Below, in pieces: positions 1,061-30,206 of a stretch of DNA of 35,057 nucleotides. The notes beneath the pieces were generated by a model. The model did no database searches. It had not been told where the DNA came from and was given only the letters and a program-made list of their open reading frames with translations. How positions within the stretch are numbered: the first letter of the stretch is position 1; each line of letters begins with the position of its first letter. A program made the translations under genes and the position numbers. This DNA is from an uncultured Psychroflexus sp. (GTDB lineage: Bacteria > Bacteroidota > Bacteroidia > Flavobacteriales > Flavobacteriaceae), in assembly GCA_913056525.1 (NCBI GenBank), contig CAJXLO010000015.1:1-35057 (forward strand), in the 5' to 3' direction.

Positions 1061-3919
1061 TCAACGTTTTAAAGTGAAATGCCCTTTAAAGACCTTACCA
1101 TCAGCTAATTCTACACGATACCAATAATCATTGGAAGGCATGGGATTTCCGTTATAAGTACCATCCCAACCTTTTGAGCGAGGTGAAAAGGTTTTGAGCA
1201 ATTTTCCGTATCTGTCAAAGACCTTGATGATGGCATCGAAATCTGAAACCTTGAACAAACCATCTAATTGCCAATAATCGTTATATCCATCTTGATTAGG
1301 GGTGAAATATTCTGGTATACCCAGCACACCGAATTCTTTAGGTCTGATGCCGCAGCCGTTCTTATCCTTTACATATATGGTATGTAAGCCCATGGGGATC
1401 CTATCAAAGGTATTGCTATCCTGATACGGTCCATTCACATTATCAATGGCATATTCATAATCGCCTAGACTTTCCGGTAGTAGAATTACTTCTGCTGTAT
1501 TATTCGCCTGGAATTCTTGCACTTCTATATCAAAAAAGGCTATGTTAGACGGTAGAACAGTGAAGGTCCTGCTTTTTTGACAACCAGTAGACTCGTCCAG
1601 AACGGTGAAAATATATTCACCTGCTTCATTGATCGCTATTTGCGGCGAAGTTTGCGCTGTAGGTTCCCAAAGGAAACTAAAGCCATTGGTCAGGCCTACG
1701 TAATTTGAGGTCAAATTGATAGGTTCTGGGAAAGTGTTCGTGCAATAAATCACCTCATCATCCTGACCCACTGGCGGTAGCTCGTCTATGTTTAATGTGA
1801 GGATACCCAGATCATCGCAGCCACCGGAGCGGACATTCCTAAAATAGATATCCTGTTGATAAGGATTGGTTATCGTAAAATCGGTCGGGTTCTGTATAGG
1901 GTTAGTCTCTTGTAACGCTTCATTCTCTGTTAGGTAAAAATCGGTCACATCCAGCGAACTTGAAGCATCGATATCCGTTAGGTCAAAACTTCTGATCCCA
2001 TCTTCGTTCGTATCACATAAGTTCAACTGCTCGTTTAGTATGTTCACATCTTCTATCTGTAGGTCCAGTTCAACGATGTCTGCACAATTGGTATTATCAT
2101 TATTTACGCTAACATACAATGTTTGCGGATTGGAAGTATTCGTGTAGTCGTTAATTCCCTGTATCGGATCCTGTTCCGCTTGTGCATCGGATAGGTTTGT
2201 GAAGTAAGTAAAACTATAATCCGCTAATTGTGCATTATCCGGGGTCAGTTCATCTTCTGCATCGGTCAGGTCGAACTGGGAAGTTTCATTCTCAAGATCG
2301 GTAACGCAATTAAAGAGATCAGCATCGTTCGCTAAGGGGATTTCCGCATAGGTAATATTGGCTATGCCTTGAAGTGGACAGCTTCCATCATTAAGGTTGA
2401 CTTCTAGCGTAAAGGTTTCTTCAAAGGGAAGTTCGATATTATCAGGAGCCTGAACCGTGATCTGCGGTCCGGACTCGTTCATAAGCTCACCTTCGTTATA
2501 CCAGGTATAGGTAGCTCCGCTGATATCATCATAAGCGAGTTCTATCGTTTCATTACCACATATCTGAGTGTCTGTAATGATCTCATCAGATACATCCTCT
2601 ATAATATCTATTCTTGAGCTGAATATGGATTGAGTAAAGGGTGGCAGACCAAAAGTGGAGGAACCAGATAGTGGAATGGCTCCCTGACCAGGGCTTTCCG
2701 TATAGTTCACATTGTCCGCATCCGCATTGGGATTATTGATGACCGCTAAAACATTGTTACCGAAGACAGTCTTGTAGATCTTTCCGTCCGGTCCCAGTTG
2801 CATGGCCGTTGGTGTTCCACCGCTCACGCCATCTATGGCACTTTGAGCGGAAGATATGTCCGCCGCTTCCAGGTCCCATTGGATCAAACTGAAAGTGCTG
2901 GGCGATGGATTTATCGTAGCATAGGCCTTAGTAGCATCTGGAGAGAATTCCACACCATAGGCATTGACATTTTGAACAAGCGGTATAGGGTTTGAGACCT
3001 GACCAGTATCGTTATTGAAATCAAACAGATATACATTACCGTCGCCAGCATCTGAAGTTCCTATCTGGTCATAGTTTGTCGTATTATTAGCGGTTATCAA
3101 TTTTCCTCCATCTGGCGATGCTTTGAGATAACCCAAAGCACTTCTCCGATAACCGGATAAAGGAACCACAGGTCCAGTTTGAGAAATCACCGGTTGCTCA
3201 TCCACGCCGTCATCATCGATCTTAAAAGCGTAGAACGTATCGATAAAATGAGTGATCAACCAGGTAGAAGAACAGTCCGATCCTCTGACGGCGGTTATCT
3301 TTTCAGAGCATTTGTATTTCACCTGCTCAACATCATTTTCATCATAAGTGATCAATTGATTGTTCCTTTCACCAGCAACGACATCTCCAAGTCCGTTCCT
3401 TAGAGACATGTCCACGATGGAAAAATTGAGGCCGTTATTAAAACCATCATCATCCTGAGGAACCGAATGGGAACTGATGTCAGAATAGTTGGATGCTGGT
3501 GAACCATCGGGATTGGCCGGACCCTGGTTCGGATAAGCATTTGCATTATCATGATGCGGTTCATCTACAGTAAATACATAATAGAGGTCATTGTCAGAAG
3601 GATGTGGAACGATGAGCCCGCTGGAAGTACTGGAAGGATCACCGTTTAGACCTGTTCCACCGAAGTAGTCCGCATTCGGCATGATGTTATGTTCGCGGTC
3701 CCAAACTGTCCTACCATCGGTGTAGAACAGAAGGTTTCCCGAGGCATCCGAGATTGAAGAGCAGCCTTCGTTCGTCGCGAGTTGCCCGTCACTTAAGGCT
3801 GAAGGTGGTGATGTACTGAAAGTGATCCCGGCGTTATTGCCAAAGTACCAGTTGTTCGCTTCGCCCTGACTAAAGTTCAAGATTGGAAATAGCAACAGGA
3901 GAAGGCTAAAGCGATACAT
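1061..3919 (-). CDS. T9SS type B sorting domain-containing (gliding motility-associated C-terminal domain) secreted protein
   Basis: Signal peptide MYRFSLLLLLFPILNFSQG; C-terminus YFTPNQDGYNDYWQLDG...IIKVFDRYGKLLKTF...GWDGTYNGNPMPSNDYWYRVELADGKVFKGHFTLKR is the type-B CTD. Confidence 0.92.
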   Translation of the reverse strand: MYRFSLLLLLFPILNFSQGEANNWYFGNNAGITFSTSPPSALSDGQLATNEGCSSISDASGNLLFYTDGRTVWDREHNIMPNADYFGGTGLNGDPSSTSSGLIVPHPSDNDLYYVFTVDEPHHDNANAYPNQGPANPDGSPASNYSDISSHSVPQDDDGFNNGLNFSIVDMSLRNGLGDVVAGERNNQLITYDENDVEQVKYKCSEKITAVRGSDCSSTWLITHFIDTFYAFKIDDDGVDEQPVISQTGPVVPLSGYRRSALGYLKASPDGGKLITANNTTNYDQIGTSDAGDGNVYLFDFNNDTGQVSNPIPLVQNVNAYGVEFSPDATKAYATINPSPSTFSLIQWDLEAADISSAQSAIDGVSGGTPTAMQLGPDGKIYKTVFGNNVLAVINNPNADADNVNYTESPGQGAIPLSGSSTFGLPPFTQSIFSSRIDIIEDVSDEIITDTQICGNETIELAYDDISGATYTWYNEGELMNESGPQITVQAPDNIELPFEETFTLEVNLNDGSCPLQGIANITYAEIPLANDADLFNCVTDLENETSQFDLTDAEDELTPDNAQLADYSFTYFTNLSDAQAEQDPIQGINDYTNTSNPQTLYVSVNNDNTNCADIVELDLQIEDVNILNEQLNLCDTNEDGIRSFDLTDIDASSSLDVTDFYLTENEALQETNPIQNPTDFTITNPYQQDIYFRNVRSGGCDDLGILTLNIDELPPVGQDDEVIYCTNTFPEPINLTSNYVGLTNGFSFLWEPTAQTSPQIAINEAGEYIFTVLDESTGCQKSRTFTVLPSNIAFFDIEVQEFQANNTAEVILLPESLGDYEYAIDNVNGPYQDSNTFDRIPMGLHTIYVKDKNGCGIRPKEFGVLGIPEYFTPNQDGYNDYWQLDGLFKVSDFDAIIKVFDRYGKLLKTFSPRSKGWDGTYNGNPMPSNDYWYRVELADGKVFKGHFTLKR

Positions 3920-3932
3920 AAATGTTTTTGCT

Positions 3933-3940
3933 CAAATATA
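3933..3940 (-). promoter_or_regulatory. Candidate Bacteroidota -7 element TATATTTG for the T9SS protein gene
   Basis: CAAATATA on + (TATATTTG on -), 13 nt upstream of the ATG. Confidence 0.5.
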
Positions 3941-3950
3941 AAAGTTTATT

Positions 3951-4775
3951 TTACAAATCGCGTTTTTGAAGTAATTTATAAGAACCCAGAACAAAAATAA
4001 CCGTCCATACCAGAACGATGATGATGGCCGTTAATGGAACGCCATAATCCTTATCAAATTCCGGATTAAGCTGATTAGCAGCAGAAGAAACGGCCTCCAA
4101 CTTGGTCACCGGCTCTACAATAAGATTGCTCATGGCCTGTAGTGGCAGGAACTGCTTTAAGAATTCAAGCGGTTTTGCCTCAAAATTGATAAAAAGACGC
4201 ACTAAGCCTTCCAGCACCCAGATGAGAAAAAGAAAACCCAGCGCGAAAGCTGAACGTTTGACCAAGATCCCCAAAAACATACATAGGGAGAAAAAACCGA
4301 GTAGTTTCACGAAATAAGCGGCGATGTATTCCATATCACTGAAAATGATGGAAGCTTCCGTAAAATCAGAAAAAACTAAGCCCAGGATAAGGCTGATGAT
4401 AAAATACGCCAGGGTTGAGGTCAGAGAAAGCACCACGACCATTGAGAACTTGGACTGAATGAACTCCCATTTGCTCAAGCCGTCTATCAAATTTTGTTTT
4501 AAGGTCCTGTTCGTATATTCACTGGACATCAGAGAAACGATAACGATAGCCAGGAAGATCTTCAAGACCGCCAGAAAATAAGCGTTAAAATGCCATACAT
4601 AAGGAAAATTGAAAATTCCCTGCTCGGCCACTCTAAAATCTACAACGCCAAAGTTGAACCTGATAGAGGAAAACAAGGCAATAAAGGCAAATAGCGCAAA
4701 GTAGATTATGCTCAAAACCTTGGCCGACCTTGAACGAATAAACTTATAGAACTCTATATTGAATAATCTTAACAT
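3951..4775 (-). CDS. ABC-2 type transporter permease
   Basis: About 6 TM segments, MLRLFNIEFYKFIRSRSAKVLSIIYF...; directly downstream of an ABC ATPase on the same strand. Confidence 0.85.
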   Translation of the reverse strand: MLRLFNIEFYKFIRSRSAKVLSIIYFALFAFIALFSSIRFNFGVVDFRVAEQGIFNFPYVWHFNAYFLAVLKIFLAIVIVSLMSSEYTNRTLKQNLIDGLSKWEFIQSKFSMVVVLSLTSTLAYFIISLILGLVFSDFTEASIIFSDMEYIAAYFVKLLGFFSLCMFLGILVKRSAFALGFLFLIWVLEGLVRLFINFEAKPLEFLKQFLPLQAMSNLIVEPVTKLEAVSSAANQLNPEFDKDYGVPLTAIIIVLVWTVIFVLGSYKLLQKRDL

Positions 4776-4782
4776 GATGAAC

Positions 4783-5682
4783 TTAATTTTTTGTAATTTC
4801 CAGAAAGCTGTCTTCCAAGCTTTCTTTTCGTTTGATCAAATGATTGAAAAAAATATTTTGTTGAGCTGCTTTCTGGTTGAGCGTTGCCGCATCGGTCGGT
4901 TGATTGAGCATGGCCTTCATCACTCCTTTTGGGAGCTCTTTAACCTTACTTACTTCTTCACAGGATTCCAGAAAGGCCTTTACCTTAGCCGGGTCATCAG
5001 CGGCGACTTCCACAAAACCATGTGTTGCGTTCATCTCATCCACTCTACCAGTATAAAGGTTTTTTCCTTCCCTTAAAATGACCACATGGGTGCAGATCTT
5101 CTCCACTTCATCCAATAAATGAGAAGCTAATAGAATGGTTGTCCCTTGATTGGCAATTCTAGTGATGATATCCCTGATCTGATGGATCCCAGCTGGGTCC
5201 AATCCGTTCGTGGGTTCGTCCAGTATCAATATCTCAGGATCATTCAGAAGTGCTGATGCGATGGCCAGACGTTGTTTCATACCTAATGAGTATTGCTTGA
5301 AATGGTCGTTCTTTCTGTCCAGAAGTCCTACTACCTCTAATTTTTCATCTATACTAAGCACGTCCAATTCCTTGATCTTGCACACCAATTTGAGGTTCTC
5401 ATAAGCTGACATATTAGGATAGAAATTAGGGTTTTCTATGATCGCACCTATTTTCTTTAAGGCATCATGCGTTGGCATGTCTGATTCGAACCATCTGAAA
5501 TTACCAGAGGATGGATTTACCACGTTGAGCACCATTCCTAGTGTGGTGGACTTCCCGCTTCCATTAGGTCCAAGGATGCCATAGATATTGCCTTTTTCTA
5601 TGGTGAATGATAAATTATCAACGGCCTTTAATTTCCCATAATTCTTAGTAAGCCGATCAAGGATAAGTATTCGTTCTGCCAA
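4783..5682 (-). CDS. ABC transporter ATP-binding protein
   Basis: Walker A GPNGSGKST, signature SLGMKQRLAIA, Walker B ILILDEPTNGLD. Confidence 0.95.
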   Translation of the reverse strand: MAERILILDRLTKNYGKLKAVDNLSFTIEKGNIYGILGPNGSGKSTTLGMVLNVVNPSSGNFRWFESDMPTHDALKKIGAIIENPNFYPNMSAYENLKLVCKIKELDVLSIDEKLEVVGLLDRKNDHFKQYSLGMKQRLAIASALLNDPEILILDEPTNGLDPAGIHQIRDIITRIANQGTTILLASHLLDEVEKICTHVVILREGKNLYTGRVDEMNATHGFVEVAADDPAKVKAFLESCEEVSKVKELPKGVMKAMLNQPTDAATLNQKAAQQNIFFNHLIKRKESLEDSFLEITKN

Positions 5683-5862
5683 AGTCTTTTTTTTAGTAGG
5701 ACGGCAAATATCCTATTTTGTTACAGATAAGTTAAAGAAATGCCTGCGAATTTCGTCGATACTGAACCAGACCTTAGCAAATGGAACAAACCAATGGTTT
5801 CGGAATACGCTTAATACGATACCGATATCAATGTTTTCTTGTGAACAACTATCTACTTTTTT

Positions 5863-6444
5863 TTAAATATCAAATTCCACCACGTTCTTATAAGCACCTG
5901 GCTGGAGTTCACCCAGGTTTTCATTACCTATTCTGGTCCTTATCAATCTTAAACAGGGAAATCCCACGGCCGCGGTCATCTTCCTGACCTGCCTGAACTT
6001 TCCTTCCCTAAGGACGACCTTTAACCAGGATGTAGGTCCATGCTTAGGATGACGCTGCTTTCTATGGGTTGGAACATCAGGAGCCTCATTGATCTGTTCG
6101 GCCTGACAAGGTAAGGTCTTATGATACTTCCCGTGAACACTGATATCCACTCCGGCCTGAAGCTGCTTCACAGCCTTCCGGTCTATAATACCATCTACCA
6201 TAACAAAATATTCCTTTTCTACTTTCCGTCCTCTTATCAACTGGCTTAGCCTGCCGTTATCGGTCAGCAGTAACAAGCCTTCAGAGGTTTCATCCAATCT
6301 GCCTATTGGCATTATCCGCTCATTCACGTCCATCAGTTCGCCCAGCAATCGCTTGTTCTTCCTCCTGTTTTGATTATTGACGAACTGAGACAGGTATCCG
6401 TAAGGTTTCCATAATTTGTAATGTGTAAAATTGCTCATCATCAA
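5863..6444 (-). CDS. RsuA/RluE-family rRNA pseudouridine synthase
   Basis: YKLWKPYGYLSQF; catalytic GRLDETSEGLLLLTDNG; FRQVRKMTAAVGFPCLRLIRTRIG. Confidence 0.92.
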   Translation of the reverse strand: MMMSNFTHYKLWKPYGYLSQFVNNQNRRKNKRLLGELMDVNERIMPIGRLDETSEGLLLLTDNGRLSQLIRGRKVEKEYFVMVDGIIDRKAVKQLQAGVDISVHGKYHKTLPCQAEQINEAPDVPTHRKQRHPKHGPTSWLKVVLREGKFRQVRKMTAAVGFPCLRLIRTRIGNENLGELQPGAYKNVVEFDI

Positions 6445-6451
6445 AATATGA

Positions 6452-7081
6452 TCAATTAGGAAATCCTAAAATATCGCCCAACCCAACAGCATAGATCCAG
6501 CATCCATACAAAGCATGCTCAAATATACTAAATCCTAAAGAACGCGTCCTTAGATAAGTATGACAGAAAATCCATCCGCCTATCAAGGTCATCAATAAGA
6601 CGAGTCCGTTATAAAAGAACAAATGCGCTAATGAAAAAAGCAGGCCGTTCACGAACAGGAAAACACTATCATTTGGAAAGATCTGTTTATATCTATGATA
6701 GAAAAAGTATCGGTAGATAAAAGATTGCGGAACAACTGACGCCAGGGTGTAAATTCCACAAATAATGATGAACTGCTGCGGATTGATCCTGATCGGTAAG
6801 AAAAGTTGCTTCGGATAGGAGATTGATACGATAGAATAGGTGACCAATGCGACGACAACGAACTTTGCCAGTAGAAAAAAAAGGTGTTGACCTTTTATTC
6901 CATCCGATGATATCCTGAACGAAAAGAACCGGTGCTTTCCACTGATAATGATGATATATATCAAACCCAGAAGCCCTAAAACGAGCCGAATGGTCAAAGG
7001 AACCGGCACGGCGAGCAGTAATGGAAGAAGTACAAAAAGCAGGAGTAGCTCGGCCAGTCTTTGCTTGTCCTTTATTCTCAT
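6452..7081 (-). CDS. CPBP-family (Abi-like) membrane protein with divergent glutamate motif
   Basis: Track ORF is 6452..7168. ATG at 7081 (MRIKDKQRLAELLLLF) is preferred because a TATATTTG element lies between the two candidate starts. CPBP-like motifs: VPQSFIYRYFFYHRY, FSLAHLFFYN, FEHALYGCW. Confidence 0.7.
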   Translation of the reverse strand: MRIKDKQRLAELLLLFVLLPLLLAVPVPLTIRLVLGLLGLIYIIIISGKHRFFSFRISSDGIKGQHLFFLLAKFVVVALVTYSIVSISYPKQLFLPIRINPQQFIIICGIYTLASVVPQSFIYRYFFYHRYKQIFPNDSVFLFVNGLLFSLAHLFFYNGLVLLMTLIGGWIFCHTYLRTRSLGFSIFEHALYGCWIYAVGLGDILGFPN

Positions 7082-7088
7082 AAAATGC

Positions 7089-7096
7089 CAAATATA
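7089..7096 (-). promoter_or_regulatory. Candidate -7 element TATATTTG for the CPBP/pseudouridine synthase operon
   Basis: CAAATATA on +, 8 nt upstream of ATG 7081. Confidence 0.5.
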
Positions 7097-7189
7097 TCCT
7101 TTTAGGGCGAAATATCGATTAAAAAAAAAACATCCCTGAATACCGCCATCTGAGCTCATCAGGAACATCGTTACTAAAAAATAAATATT

Positions 7190-7197
7190 TAGTTTTG
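7190..7197 (+). promoter_or_regulatory. Candidate -7 element TAGTTTTG
   Basis: Matches TAnnTTTG, 15 nt upstream of ATG 7213. Confidence 0.5.
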
Positions 7198-7212
7198 TTG
7201 TTTTGATATCCT

Positions 7213-7938
7213 ATGCCTGATAACAGTATTCAGACAGCGCAAAACGTGACCATAACAAGGAATACCGCCAGTATCATCAAGCGTGGCGCTGCTTTCCTCA
7301 TCGATATTTTGATCTACATCAGCTATTTTACGCTTACCTCACTCCTACTTTCCTTTTTTGATGTTAGGAACACAATTTCCCTTTCAATGCTCAGCATCAT
7401 CTATAGTTTGCCAATATTATTATACCACGTGCTGTTCGAGGTTTTTAATAACGGACAAAGTATTGGCAAGGCCAGTTTACGGATCCGTGTGGTCAAGCTG
7501 GATGGTTCACATCCCGACCTGGGAAGTCTGATGATCCGCTGGTTGTTACGGATCCTTGACATTACGCTCACCACCGGTGGACTGGCCATCGTGATGATCT
7601 TATTGAACAAGAACGGTCAGCGATTAGGAGATCTTGCGGCCAGAACATGCGTGATCGATGAAAATCCCAGGACCGGCGCTCAGAACACGCTAATCGCCCA
7701 TCTGCCAGAGGATCATCAACCTAAGTACGAGCAAGTGCGTCTATTCTCTGATGAAGATATGCAAAAGACGAAACGACTATTTACCAATGCAGAAAAGACC
7801 GGCAACCATAAGATCAAGATCGCACTGGCGCAAAAGTTGGCCAGGAAGATGAAAGTAGAACCTGAGGAAAAACCGCATTTTTTCATACAGCGCGTATTAG
7901 CGGATTACACGTACTATACTAGTCAAGACAGCATTTGA
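7213..7938 (+). CDS. RDD family membrane protein
   Basis: KRGAAFLIDILIYISYF...FEVFNNGQSIGKASLRIRVVKLDGSHP...LRILDI...GQRLGDLAARTCVI. Confidence 0.9.
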   Translation: MPDNSIQTAQNVTITRNTASIIKRGAAFLIDILIYISYFTLTSLLLSFFDVRNTISLSMLSIIYSLPILLYHVLFEVFNNGQSIGKASLRIRVVKLDGSHPDLGSLMIRWLLRILDITLTTGGLAIVMILLNKNGQRLGDLAARTCVIDENPRTGAQNTLIAHLPEDHQPKYEQVRLFSDEDMQKTKRLFTNAEKTGNHKIKIALAQKLARKMKVEPEEKPHFFIQRVLADYTYYTSQDSI

Positions 7939-7939
7939 T

Positions 7940-8536
7940 TTGATCACCTTTCTGGACATACTTGGTGTTATCGCATTTTCCATATCTGGAGTGCTGACCT
8001 CAATGCGCAAGGAGATGGATGCCTTTGGGATATTGATCATCGCTTTTGTGACGGCCATTGGCGGTGGTACGTTAAGGGATGTGCTGCTGGACCAGCCAGT
8101 AATCTGGTTACGGGACCTGACCTACGCTTATACCATTGTCATCACCGTTGTATTGGCCATCATCTTCCAGCATAAGATCGCTTACCTGAGAAGGTCGCTT
8201 TTCCTTTTTGATACCATAGGATTAGGGCTCTATACGGTAGTAGGCATTGAAAAAGCGCTTTCCGCCGATATTCCCTGGGTGATCTGTATCGCCTTTGGAA
8301 CGATGAGCGCCTGCTTTGGCGGCGTTTTACGGGATATCCTCAGCAACGAGATACCTATCATCTTTCGCCAGGAGATCTATGCGACAGCTTGTATATTAGG
8401 CGGTATGGTGTATTTTGGACTAAGCCAATTCCCTATCAATATCAATTGGATTTTCATCATCTCCCTAAGCGTCGTGATCGTAGTCCGGATCCTGGCGGTA
8501 GTGTTTAAGATCTCCCTGCCTAGCGTTTATAAGTAG
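7940..8536 (+). CDS. TRIC cation channel / UPF0126 (YicG-like) membrane protein
   Basis: LDILGVIAFSISGVLTSMRKEMDAFGILIIAFVTAIGGGTLRDVLL...CFGGVLRDILSNEIP: duplicated GGGxxRD half-repeats. TTG start next to the preceding stop. Confidence 0.9.
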   Translation: MITFLDILGVIAFSISGVLTSMRKEMDAFGILIIAFVTAIGGGTLRDVLLDQPVIWLRDLTYAYTIVITVVLAIIFQHKIAYLRRSLFLFDTIGLGLYTVVGIEKALSADIPWVICIAFGTMSACFGGVLRDILSNEIPIIFRQEIYATACILGGMVYFGLSQFPININWIFIISLSVVIVVRILAVVFKISLPSVYK

Positions 8537-25729: not shown

Positions 25730-25761
25730 ACAATACAAGTTTTAATTGGCTCCAATTGTTT

Positions 25762-25769
25762 TATTTTTG
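25762..25769 (+). promoter_or_regulatory. Candidate -7 element TATTTTTG
   Basis: Matches TAnnTTTG, 18 nt upstream of ATG 25788. Confidence 0.5.
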
Positions 25770-25787
25770 CGGAAACTTAAACGATCG

Positions 25788-26522
25788 ATGAGACCAATAT
25801 TCATTCTATGCTTCTTAAGTCTGCTTATTTACAGTTGTGGAAAAGGTAAGGAACATAATCCTTCGCCATCAAAAGGCGTTCAGGCAATTTCAGCTATGAA
25901 GAGAGTTATGATGAAAGGAGATCTGAGCGGGAAGATAGCTATTGATACTTTACAAAAGAACAAGCGATTGCTAGGTTTAGGACCAATAGCAAAGATGAAA
26001 GGAGAAATAACCCTGCTGAGGGGAAAGACCTATAGCTCATCCTTTAATGAAAAAGATTCTAGTATAGTAACGCATATCGATACTGAAGTAAGTGCACCCT
26101 TTTTTGTTTTTAGTTATGAAAAAGACCTGGAGCCAATGGAAGTTCCTAAGAAAGTGAAGAACATCGATCAATTAGAAGATTGGATTACTGAGCATATCAG
26201 GGAAGATGCAGAAGCTTTTGGTTTTACCGTTGCTAGCCATATTAGGCAAGCAAATGTTCACATACAAAACTTACCGGACAGCGTAGATGTCAAATCTCCT
26301 CAAGACGCACATATTGGTCAATATAAAACTCGTTTAACGGATAGGGATGTTACCCTGGTAGGTTTTTTTTCTGATGATGATCATGGAATATTCACTCATC
26401 ACGGAACGAACATGCACATTCATTTAGTAGATGAGAAAAATAGCATGACCGCCCATTTAGATGCGATCGATATGGAAAGTGCAACTATTCATCTACCGTT
26501 GGATGTTCTAAAAGCTCGTTGA
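25788..26522 (+). CDS. Acetolactate decarboxylase-like lipoprotein
   Basis: Start moved from 25746 to ATG 25788 (MRPIFILCFLSLLIYSCGKG, lipobox). MKGEITLLRGKTYSS and THHGTNMHIHLVDEKNSMTAHLDAIDM (HxH-x10-H). Confidence 0.75.
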   Translation: MRPIFILCFLSLLIYSCGKGKEHNPSPSKGVQAISAMKRVMMKGDLSGKIAIDTLQKNKRLLGLGPIAKMKGEITLLRGKTYSSSFNEKDSSIVTHIDTEVSAPFFVFSYEKDLEPMEVPKKVKNIDQLEDWITEHIREDAEAFGFTVASHIRQANVHIQNLPDSVDVKSPQDAHIGQYKTRLTDRDVTLVGFFSDDDHGIFTHHGTNMHIHLVDEKNSMTAHLDAIDMESATIHLPLDVLKAR

Positions 26523-29500
26523 CAGACCAAAAGTAAACCAGAAACCATCATCGCTGTGGAATAGATTAAAAGTACCGGAAACAAGGTCTGCGGCGTTGAT
26601 CCAGGTACCCATACCATAATCGTCATGCCAAATTTCAGAATCCTGGTCATTGACCCAAACGCGACCAATATCATAACCACCCAGGATACCTATTTGTAAG
26701 GGCGTTAAAGATGTTTTGAACTGCGGAAAAGCGTAACGTAGGTCCGCACTTCCTATAAGCGACTGGTCACCGGTAAAGCGCTGACCGCGAAATCCTCTTA
26801 AACCTGAATCTGCGCCAATTTGTGCCGCCTGATAGAACTCATAGTTCGATGAGTTCCCAAAATTGACCTGTGAACTGGCCGATGTTTTCAAGGCCAATCT
26901 TTCATCAGCGCTCAAGGGATGGAAGAACGTCAATGACGGGTTCAGATAAACAAAGCTCTTATCAGTATCATCAAGGTTAGTAGTAACTCCTGTGGAAAGT
27001 TGAAAGTCAACTCCTCTGGAAGGTCGAAGTTCATCATTCAGGTTATGGAAACTGTAAGAACCGTAAAGGCTTAGGAATTGTTTATCATCAAAGAAATCTT
27101 TGTCATTGGCTAATCGTTCATCAGCATTTATATCCAATACTCTGTTATCTGTCCTTTCTAATTCCCTGTTTTCAAAACGGATGCCAAAACCGGTCTTTGC
27201 TCCATAACCCGATACCTTCTCTAATCCTACCGATGCAATGATACTTTCCAACTGGATACGATTAAAATCCCTATCCAGCTCATCATCTGGATTATCGGTT
27301 TCATTACCTATGCCAAAGAAATTCCTTACATAATTGGGGCTGGTGAACCTAAGATCAGTAACCACTTGATAATCGCTGAACAAGCCGGAGAACTTACCGA
27401 TATAGTTCAGGTCATAGCCTTGTTCAGCAAAATAATAACCGGCACTAAACTGATGTTGTTGGGTAAAAGGTTCCTGAATAAACCCATATTTGGTCCAATT
27501 GAAGTTTGCTCCTATCAAAAAGCCATCATCCGGATTAAACCCAACTTTAGGAATATTGGTCTTGGATGTATATATCTTTTTGTTCCTGAGAAAGCGGGTT
27601 TTTCCATAAGCATCTGTGCCATGATAGCTCCCTTTTTCTACTAATTTTGCTTTTTCATCTTCTTTAAAGTCATAGATATCGATCTTTTTTCCGTTTTCTA
27701 TCAGGAAATCATCATCGTCATGGCCACCTATGAGCCGTATCCTTATGGAAGAACCATGATCTCCTTTAACAGTAAAAGTATCCGTATCATCTAAGCCATA
27801 GACCCAAACTTCCTTAGTAGTCTCAGGGTCGAACTCACGTTGACTGATGCGGTCTTCTCTTTCGCCATCTTTATTGCGCCATATCTGTATCTTTGTATTC
27901 CCGTTAGCCATACGTTGGATGTCTATATAATCATCCTTGTCCGTAGCCGTAAGGATTACATGCTCAGCGATAACATCGTAATATTGATCAATGATCCGTA
28001 TAAGATTTTGCTTCCTCTTTAGCAAAGTTTCCTTTAATTTTTCATTGGCCGGACCGCTAACTTCCTCCGGCATTTTAGAAAATGCCTTTTCCAGGATCTC
28101 AGGTGTGATATTCTGTTGAACATACTTTGCCTGTTCCAGCCATTCATCCCTGCCTTTATTTCTTAATAGAGATCGATCTAAAGTGTGTGCGTTGAAAGAA
28201 TACCAATCAATATGGTCAATATCATCACCAAAGGACTGATAGATCCTTGGAAAACTGGAAAATGTCCTTAAAGTGTTAAATAGTCCGCCATCGAAATTAG
28301 CATAGACCTGATCGCGATCGCGTGGGATGGGATGAAAGACATGCAACCCATCTTCTTTCTCAGTTTCGGCCCAGCGCCATTGGTCCATATGCCTATCAAA
28401 ATCACCTATCAGAATGTCAAAAACACGTGCTCTAATGTAAGCTACTTCATCTAAACGGTATTTTTCATCCCTGCGGATATGATCGTAGAAATCCTCAGAG
28501 CTTTCTATACTATGGTTGGGACTACCAAATGAATCCAGGCCTAACCAATGTTCTTCAGGCCTTTCCTCTATCATATATAAGGAGTTGCCATGTTGTTTAT
28601 TGAATTTGCCCAGTCTTTTTTGTTTTGGCACGTAGAAGAGTTCCGGATTCGTATGTGGCACGTTGACAGCTTCAGCTAATGTAGGAACGGTCATGAAAGC
28701 AAAAGGGTGAGAAGCCGTAAGAATATCATCTACCAGAGCTTCTATGGCCGTATCTTTGAACTCATCCTCTAATAGTTGGTCTTTATAAAGATTGGTCTGT
28801 AAAAGACGGGTCGAGTTCTTCCTGATCTCCCTTAAGTTATATTCTCTCTTTTGGTCATCTATGAACCTAAGTGAATTGGTTTGGTTTCCGCCACCCAGTT
28901 GAACAGGTTTTAGTCCTCCATACAGTGTGTCTAATTCCACAACAGGAGCTTCAATAGGTTGATAATAAAGCTTGCGGTAATGATCTCCAAGGATACTTTC
29001 CCTGAACTTTGAATTGTCCGGCTCTTCTGATGGATCATAAATACTTGCCTGTATTGTTCGATCAAAACTATCCGGCAATTCTGAAGTGTCATATCCTGCA
29101 AAGGCTTCGTAGATAGGTTCGCTTGCTAATTTTGTGAGCTCTCCGTATTGTAAACTGAAAAAATCAACCGTAGAAGTACCATTATCAAACACCTTGACAC
29201 GGGCAAAACCCTGTTCTGAGCTAGCCAACTTTCCGTTCTTCCCTAAGGTCACGTAACTGCTCTTTGAACCTGATCCTGAAACGATCTGCTTTACACCATT
29301 ATCTTCTATATACTGTAATGTATGCTCGTGACCTGAAGCGAATATCACGTGGTCCCATTTCTTTGAAATAGCTGACATACGTTCTTTCATTTGCTGATAT
29401 TTGGCATTATGGACTTCCTGAACTGATGCTCCACCCAGGGATCGCAAGAATACGCCCAAAGTACCGATAACAGGCATTGGTAGTGGTAGACTTACAGGGA

Positions 29501-30206
29501 ATATGTGCTTCCTCAAAGGAAACTTGCCTCCGTGGATGCCATTAGAGTACAATGGATGGTGCAAGGCGATGATAACCGTCTTGTTCTGGTTTTTTTTGAT
29601 CTCCGTGCCAAATTCAATGAAAAACTCTTCGCGGGTCTGAAGTTCGTGGCAATCCTTATTGATCTTAGGATGTTTATCCCAATCAGTAAGGAACCACTGG
29701 GAGTCAACGGTGATCAAATAGACATCATCCCCGATGTTCTTGCCGTCAATAGCGCATCCGGGTTCAGGTAACCATTCGTCTTTTTGATCAAAATGATCAT
29801 CTATATAAGCTTCCTGTCTTTTTACCGCTGGAAGTCCATCTGCATAATAGTCATGATTCCCTGGAATGAACGTAATGTTCCCACCAAACTTTCTGGCGAT
29901 GTCCAATTGATGGTCGATACGTATTTCCGCATCAAATCTTAGTTTATCACTCGCAGGTGGCATTCCCTTCGGATAGATATTATCGCCCAGGAATACCAAA
30001 TGTGCATTTCGGGTATCGTTTTTATCAATATATGCTTCTAAGGCTTGTAAACCTTTCGCTTTCATCTTAGCTGGTGAATATCCGGTATCGCCTATTAAAA
30101 ATATTTCCTGAACGATTTTTGATGAACTTTCAGTTTTCTGGGCATATAAATTTAAGGTCATCAAAAGAATGAAGACTACTATGAAGTGGTTATTCGCTCG
30201 GCACAT
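26508..30206 (-). CDS. Calcineurin-like metallophosphoesterase / kinase-like region / Omp85-type C-terminal barrel fusion
   Basis: MPE motifs LIGDTGY, FLGDNIYPKGMP, FIPGNHDYY, IIALHHPLYS, ASGHEHTLQY; central QLGGGNQTNSLRF, DILIGDFDRHMDQWRW, IPRDRDQVYANFDGG; C-terminal surface-antigen-like GLRGFRGQRFTGDQSLIGSADLRYAF ending FTFGLSTSF. Confidence 0.88.
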   Translation of the reverse strand: MCRANNHFIVVFILLMTLNLYAQKTESSSKIVQEIFLIGDTGYSPAKMKAKGLQALEAYIDKNDTRNAHLVFLGDNIYPKGMPPASDKLRFDAEIRIDHQLDIARKFGGNITFIPGNHDYYADGLPAVKRQEAYIDDHFDQKDEWLPEPGCAIDGKNIGDDVYLITVDSQWFLTDWDKHPKINKDCHELQTREEFFIEFGTEIKKNQNKTVIIALHHPLYSNGIHGGKFPLRKHIFPVSLPLPMPVIGTLGVFLRSLGGASVQEVHNAKYQQMKERMSAISKKWDHVIFASGHEHTLQYIEDNGVKQIVSGSGSKSSYVTLGKNGKLASSEQGFARVKVFDNGTSTVDFFSLQYGELTKLASEPIYEAFAGYDTSELPDSFDRTIQASIYDPSEEPDNSKFRESILGDHYRKLYYQPIEAPVVELDTLYGGLKPVQLGGGNQTNSLRFIDDQKREYNLREIRKNSTRLLQTNLYKDQLLEDEFKDTAIEALVDDILTASHPFAFMTVPTLAEAVNVPHTNPELFYVPKQKRLGKFNKQHGNSLYMIEERPEEHWLGLDSFGSPNHSIESSEDFYDHIRRDEKYRLDEVAYIRARVFDILIGDFDRHMDQWRWAETEKEDGLHVFHPIPRDRDQVYANFDGGLFNTLRTFSSFPRIYQSFGDDIDHIDWYSFNAHTLDRSLLRNKGRDEWLEQAKYVQQNITPEILEKAFSKMPEEVSGPANEKLKETLLKRKQNLIRIIDQYYDVIAEHVILTATDKDDYIDIQRMANGNTKIQIWRNKDGEREDRISQREFDPETTKEVWVYGLDDTDTFTVKGDHGSSIRIRLIGGHDDDDFLIENGKKIDIYDFKEDEKAKLVEKGSYHGTDAYGKTRFLRNKKIYTSKTNIPKVGFNPDDGFLIGANFNWTKYGFIQEPFTQQHQFSAGYYFAEQGYDLNYIGKFSGLFSDYQVVTDLRFTSPNYVRNFFGIGNETDNPDDELDRDFNRIQLESIIASVGLEKVSGYGAKTGFGIRFENRELERTDNRVLDINADERLANDKDFFDDKQFLSLYGSYSFHNLNDELRPSRGVDFQLSTGVTTNLDDTDKSFVYLNPSLTFFHPLSADERLALKTSASSQVNFGNSSNYEFYQAAQIGADSGLRGFRGQRFTGDQSLIGSADLRYAFPQFKTSLTPLQIGILGGYDIGRVWVNDQDSEIWHDDYGMGTWINAADLVSGTFNLFHSDDGFWFTFGLSTSF

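Follow-up and report, generated by a model that had tools for sequence, protein, structure and literature searches.

FAM20C-type kinases of the secretory pathway carry a DRH catalytic motif, and the Pfam family PF00149 is a family of phosphoesterases. Heinz and Lithgow (2014; PMC4104836) define a 'Metallo' subfamily of Omp85 proteins by PF00149, which they term a metalloprotease, and in the portion of that paper considered here the description mentions neither a phosphoesterase nor a kinase. A second described system is PlpD, the patatin-Omp85 protein of type Vd secretion, in which a lipase domain lies N-terminal to an Omp85 barrel and POTRA is present. We analyzed a 35,057-nucleotide stretch of DNA from an uncultured Psychroflexus sp. 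(contig CAJXLO010000015.1, positions 1 to 35,057; hereafter the window) that encodes, in a single 1,232-residue chain and in this order, a signal peptide, a phosphoesterase, a centre without Pfam annotation, and an Omp85 barrel. The protein thus combines PF00149 with an Omp85 barrel in the 'Metallo' order and very likely belongs to the same group; relative to the portion of the description considered here, what we add is the identification of the centre as kinase-like and of centre-barrel, split, and centre-only forms. Unlike PlpD, it joins two predicted phosphate-active domains and has no recognizable POTRA. We propose, at a probability of roughly one half, that it is an outer-membrane, periplasm-facing pair of a phosphatase and an atypical kinase-fold enzyme that would work on an envelope substrate.

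The gene and its parts, in window coordinates, are as follows.

26508..30206, minus strand: whole gene (1,232 residues, ATG start), from the open reading frame call and full-length homologues of matching architecture
30141..30206, minus strand: signal peptide, about residues 1 to 22, judged by eye
29112..30119, minus strand: phosphoesterase domain like tartrate-resistant purple acid phosphatase (TRAP), residues 30 to 365, from Pfam PF00149, a TRAP5 profile match, and conserved metal ligands
27957..29018, minus strand: kinase-like centre, about residues 397 to 750, from conserved motifs, fold recognition, and profile comparison
28863..28901, minus strand: Gly-rich loop QLGGGNQTNSLRF, residues 436 to 448, from conservation of G438, G439, and Q442
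28377..28406, minus strand: catalytic-loop-like GDFDRHMDQW, residues 601 to 610, from conservation and alignment with the catalytic loops of HipA and CotH
28284..28325, minus strand: metal-site-like PRDRDQVYANFDGG, residues 628 to 641, from D630 and D632 conservation and alignment with the CotH IPxDxD motif
27597..27956, minus strand: beta-rich linker from centre to barrel, about residues 751 to 870, from strands in a low-confidence model
26511..27584, minus strand: Omp85-type barrel, about residues 875 to 1232, with LRGF at 1136 to 1139, from PF01103, a BamA profile match, and LRG conservation

The original prediction, made from the DNA letters, had read this open reading frame as a fusion of a phosphoesterase, a kinase-like centre, and an Omp85-type barrel, and Pfam matches, motifs, and homologues uphold both the frame and the tripartite layout. 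The two flanking domains are the most secure, and we regard their fold assignments as practically certain. Metallophos is matched at residues 35 to 232 (E 1.9e-7, above the cut-off), and the N-terminal metal-binding set that had been claimed is complete, with all five motifs of calcineurin-like phosphoesterases and purple acid phosphatases in place (GDTGY 39 to 43, GDN 74 to 76, GNHD 116 to 119, HHP 216 to 218, and GHEH 292 to 295) and each metal ligand retained in 40 to 43 of 43 full-length homologues. A profile from an alignment of 15 relatives matched structures of TRAP5 (E 7.6e-11), and phosphatase activity is predicted for this domain. At the other end, Omp85 (PF01103) is matched at residues 939 to 1193 (E 2.3e-9, 37.7 bits against a cut-off of 24). 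A barrel profile built from 24 relatives matches BamA structures at an E value of about 1e-10 and has a POTRA-domain protein as its top structure match (4e-13), and LRGF corresponds to the L6 RGF-type motif of the Omp85 superfamily, with LRG near-invariant in relatives. The Pfam scan of the fusion protein found no POTRA, in the linker or elsewhere, no patatin, and no family between the Metallophos and Omp85 matches. Heinz and Lithgow (PMC4104836), in the portion considered here, describe an Omp85 'noNterm' subfamily without N-terminal domains, so POTRA is usual in Omp85 proteins yet not universal.

The centre is the best-conserved part of the fusion protein, and the positions conserved in it belong mainly to kinase-type polar motifs, not to the hydrophobic core. 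In an alignment of 34 sequences, GGL, GGGxQTxSL, R...K, D, E (in IEERP), GDWDRHxDQWRW, and PxPRDRDQ(A/V)F are near-invariant. Across a wider set of 87 nonidentical homologous domains, some of them partial views of one gene, the Gly-rich loop (G438 in 82, G439 and Q442 in 81 each), K463 (81), the catalytic loop (D602 in 86, D604 in 73, H606 in 77), and the metal site (D630 in 85, D632 in 81) are all retained, beyond what chance would explain; the DRH and DRD positions, on whose conservation the kinase proposal had been made to depend, are thus both conserved. We chose 14 predicted catalytic positions from the GGGxQ loop, R..K, E, GDWDRHxDQ, and PRDRD, and 68 of the 87 domains keep all of them, which gives these domains the nucleotide loop, basic residue, catalytic Asp, and metal Asp expected of the protein-kinase-like superfamily.

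Fold recognition points the same way. We built two AlphaFold2 models, resting on three sequences: one of the window centre (466 residues) and, as a replicate, one of the shorter centre of locus L017 from another species (a scan of viral contigs to enlarge the set for folding yielded no relatives of the centre). Both show three strands, helices, strands, two helices, the catalytic loop, two strands, and helices, an order that by our own reading of the models would be that of kinases. In Foldseek searches of the PDB nearly all of the top 50 matches of either model have the kinase fold, and although kinases are common in the PDB, they are nowhere near nine tenths of its entries. The window model matched HipA with a probability of 0.97, with SidJ also among its matches, and its top 50 contained one clear non-kinase fold (YeaZ) and three entries of MSMEG_1954, an adenosine diphosphate-binding protein whose family is not stated in the title. 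With the L017 model, CtkA, which we take to be a HipA-type kinase, filled the first five places (best E 6e-4, probability 1.00), and FAM20A/C appeared with weak scores; its top 50 included one unrelated G-protein-coupled receptor complex, one MSMEG_1954 entry, and three pre-ribosome entries without a named chain. The fold search that had been suggested retrieved mostly kinases, CtkA/HipA best, from models with confidence scores of 50 to 52.

Profile comparison yielded a weak signal. With hhalign, the centre matched HipA_C members at P 0.0014, at 0.0055 after trimming, and at 0.0095 with a broader set, and CotH at 0.017, 0.011, and 0.0094 in the matching three runs. For HipA, 0 of 150 and 1 of 120 column-shuffled controls scored as high as the real comparison, and for CotH none of 150 and none of 120 did; with the broader alignment the HipA score was no stronger and 1 of 120 shuffles equalled it. 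In these alignments GDWDRHxDQ falls on the N.D.H..N loop of HipA; against CotH the catalytic loops line up and PIPRDRDQ falls on IPxDxD as well. HipA and CotH match each other better (P 3.2e-6), so the centre is at best a distant relative and a member of neither family. The likeness to HipA, CotH, and FAM20-type kinases thus stood in the motifs and the predicted fold, and the weak HipA and CotH matches exceed nearly all shuffles, but family membership did not, with no Pfam cut-off reached. We nevertheless consider it highly probable that the centre has a kinase fold, and somewhat more probable than not that most members are catalytically competent.

Each of the described kinases differs from the centre in its own way. 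HipA/CtkA (PF07804) gave the best fold matches and a marginal profile match, and its N.D.H..N loop resembles LIGDxDRHxDQ; the centre, in contrast, has no Pfam match to HipA_C among 34 members, is exported and linked to the outer membrane, has extra insertions, carries Q for N in most members, and has no HipB partner that we saw. CotH (PF08757) shares the aligned catalytic loop and metal motif and is the only family weakly matched by those 34 members, in two of them and below the family cut-off (best E 0.015); the centre has a different Gly-rich region and is fused to a barrel. FAM20C-type kinases have in common with it the DRH motif and weak fold scores, and FAM20C (PF06702) is absent among the Pfam matches listed for the 34 members. 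A kinase-like-family survey (PMC9758233) shows no Omp85 fusion in the portion considered here, and our search of open-license papers turned up no description of a kinase-like Omp85 protein. A Riemerella virulence metallophosphoesterase, considered as a relative, was set aside, as a review lists it among the effectors of type IX secretion.

The whole protein, broadly distributed yet largely without annotation, was matched in 196 and the central domain in 151 of 392 sampled genomes, presumably of the Bacteroidota given the named relatives (Taibaiella, Flavipsychrobacter, Hymenobacter, Persicobacter, and Parabacteroides). The centre would be a kinase-like family, unnamed in current libraries, that is linked to the outer membrane and frequently has a phosphatase as its partner. 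It occurs in three architectures: phosphoesterase-centre-barrel (about 1,240 residues), centre-barrel (about 860 to 950 residues), and the centre on its own. L062 and L063 encode the modules in three genes in a row, for a kinase-like protein (545 and 518 residues), a phosphoesterase (403 residues), and a barrel (395 and 394 residues). In L045 a stand-alone phosphoesterase belonging to the same family (E 2e-80) lies two genes upstream of the centre-barrel gene, and in L059 another phosphoesterase is likewise found two genes upstream. When 86 central domains are placed on a maximum-likelihood tree, about six changes of the tripartite label are required, and well-supported branches force at least five of these. 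The modules were fused or split on several occasions, yet are often found together, and the predicted phosphatase/kinase-like pairing recurs in fused, split, and operonic forms.

Six relatives have lost the N-lobe and C-lobe motif sets together, and none has lost the N-lobe set only, a statement that relies on the pattern alone since the accompanying Fisher test ignores relatedness. These degenerate copies occupy two or more distinct regions of the tree, one of them a clade (L050, L054, and L157) nested inside the tripartite group that has also lost the phosphoesterase, and gut Parabacteroides carries a degenerate copy as well. Judged from sequence, the joint loss looks like decay from kinase to pseudokinase.

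Among 43 loci, the linked genes encode an HD-domain protein with PycTM (26 loci), a protein of about 800 residues (16), an SdiA-regulated/phytase-like protein (10), the polyphosphate kinase PPK1 (10), and a SixA-type phosphatase (5). Within 10 kb of the centre gene, HD-PycTM, a membrane protein (for example, L163:9382-10710 and L017:9600-10838), occurs in 64 and PPK1 in 23 of 80 centre-carrying genomes, against a random-position expectation of roughly 1% that ignores relatedness. L016 and L017 have a tight five-gene run of SdiA-like protein, tripartite protein, HD-PycTM, PPK1, and class III nucleotide cyclase. Such cyclases belong to the cluster at L016:10386-11489, L017:12896-13999, L173:9277-10605, and L059:4608-5780, and the two that were compared, those of L017 and L173, match PycC models; judged by eye, cyclases also adjoin the centre gene in several other genomes among the matches listed. 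In the source genome this linkage is absent, the fusion, HD-PycTM, and PPK1 genes lying on separate contigs (C15, C27, and C22). The PycTM and PycC matches raised an anti-phage Pycsar system, which we rejected: HD-PycTM is present in 77 of the 80 genomes, a housekeeping-like distribution, and the fusion protein had no PADLOC match. This gene linkage suggests signalling by phosphate or nucleotides, without defining the substrate.

In the proposed mechanism, the barrel would anchor the chain in the outer membrane, the kinase-like domain (of HipA/CotH/FAM20 type) would add phosphate to an envelope substrate, and the TRAP-like domain would remove phosphate from one; that both act in opposition on the same substrate is a tentative extension that we hold to be somewhat doubtful. 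Several observations weigh against this proposal. Model confidence is low (predicted local distance difference test 49.9 and 52.2, predicted template modelling score 0.52 and 0.54), and Foldseek template modelling scores stay below 0.4 for both models, which amounts to recognition of a fold and not to a trustworthy model. The profile scores of the centre are marginal (P 0.001 to 0.02), a profile search against PDB sequences returned nothing credible, and Pfam and NCBIfam scans of the 34 members assigned no significant family, including no Pfam kinase family. To our knowledge, the periplasm and cell envelope have no supply of adenosine triphosphate (ATP). Eight domain rows, finally, have G or S in place of D604 but retain PRDRD and the glycine loop (GGS in four rows, otherwise GGG); these rows may be inactive or perform different chemistry.

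The rival that survives these facts best, although we judge it unlikely, keeps the kinase fold and drops phosphate transfer to a substrate, the centre instead sensing nucleotides or polyphosphate or carrying out other chemistry as in SelO and SidJ. The rows without D604, the SidJ match, the lack of a known ATP supply, and a linkage to cyclase, HD-PycTM, and PPK1 that suggests nucleotide or polyphosphate signalling all speak in its favor, but a mere binding domain would not need the full catalytic set kept by 68 of the 87 domains. With PPK1 linked to the centre, polyphosphate would be an obvious candidate donor, and an active kinase-phosphatase that draws on a donor other than cytoplasmic ATP, polyphosphate for example, within a conserved module that also includes a nucleotide cyclase, HD-PycTM, and polyphosphate kinase is conceivable but quite improbable as a specific account. 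If the proposed kinase-phosphatase pair is active, it would imply reversible phosphorylation in the periplasm and open the question of the phosphate donor to testing. The HD-PycTM and polyphosphate kinase genes linked to it offer a concrete starting point, and the natural degenerate copies serve as built-in controls.

We think it likely that the enzyme domains lie in the periplasm, by analogy with PlpD and from the split forms, in which the kinase-like protein and the phosphoesterase start with lipoprotein-like sequences (LAGC and ALSC, by eye). The original prediction had instead suggested that they might form part of a surface polypeptide, anchored or exported by its own barrel in a type-Vd-like arrangement. 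The order of N-terminal enzymes and C-terminal Omp85 barrel does recall the early PlpD model, as given in the portion of PMC4104836 considered here, but no POTRA was found, barrel-less copies begin like lipoproteins, and the enzyme domain of PlpD, the type Vd prototype, later proved to be kept in the periplasm (PMC11116518), so that export is hard to sustain and we give it little weight. It is equally improbable that the centre is a structural, nonenzymatic module replacing POTRA in the periplasm with only convergent kinase likeness, a view that could appeal to low model confidence, weak profile scores, and degenerate versions that retain the barrel, but that sits poorly with conserved residues that are kinase-type polar motifs rather than core hydrophobics and with motifs that vanish jointly in degenerate relatives.

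Some further features of these loci are recorded here. At L057 two copies stand in tandem, one without the catalytic motifs (3276-5915) and one that retains them (5923-8490). In the same genus one paralogue is interrupted after the DRH loop and before the PRDRD site, leaving two overlapping open reading frames (L014:1489-3321 and 3318-4709). Loci L153 to L156 (G184:C1, about 1087765-1090495, and G384:C1, about 4611821-4614544) hold divergent pairs of barrel-less, lipoprotein-like copies, with GDWDRHEGQW in one copy and GDWSRREDQW in the other. Two plasmid-borne homologues are annotated as "hypothetical protein," and on a Hymenobacter plasmid an undecaprenyl-diphosphate phosphatase gene (L158:1837-2625) lies directly upstream of the tripartite homologue. 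A CotH-family gene (G038:C15:16534-17403) lies near the centre-barrel gene of L061 on the opposite strand. The linked protein of about 800 residues (790 to 812 residues; L178:702-3140 and L045:8559-10925) has no Pfam match. In the window, the fusion gene is flanked by an acetolactate-decarboxylase-like gene and a flavin mononucleotide-reductase-like gene; the former (25746-26522, plus strand; acetolactate-decarboxylase domain, E 3e-14; lipoprotein-like start) is convergent with the fusion gene and overlaps its 3' end by 15 bases.

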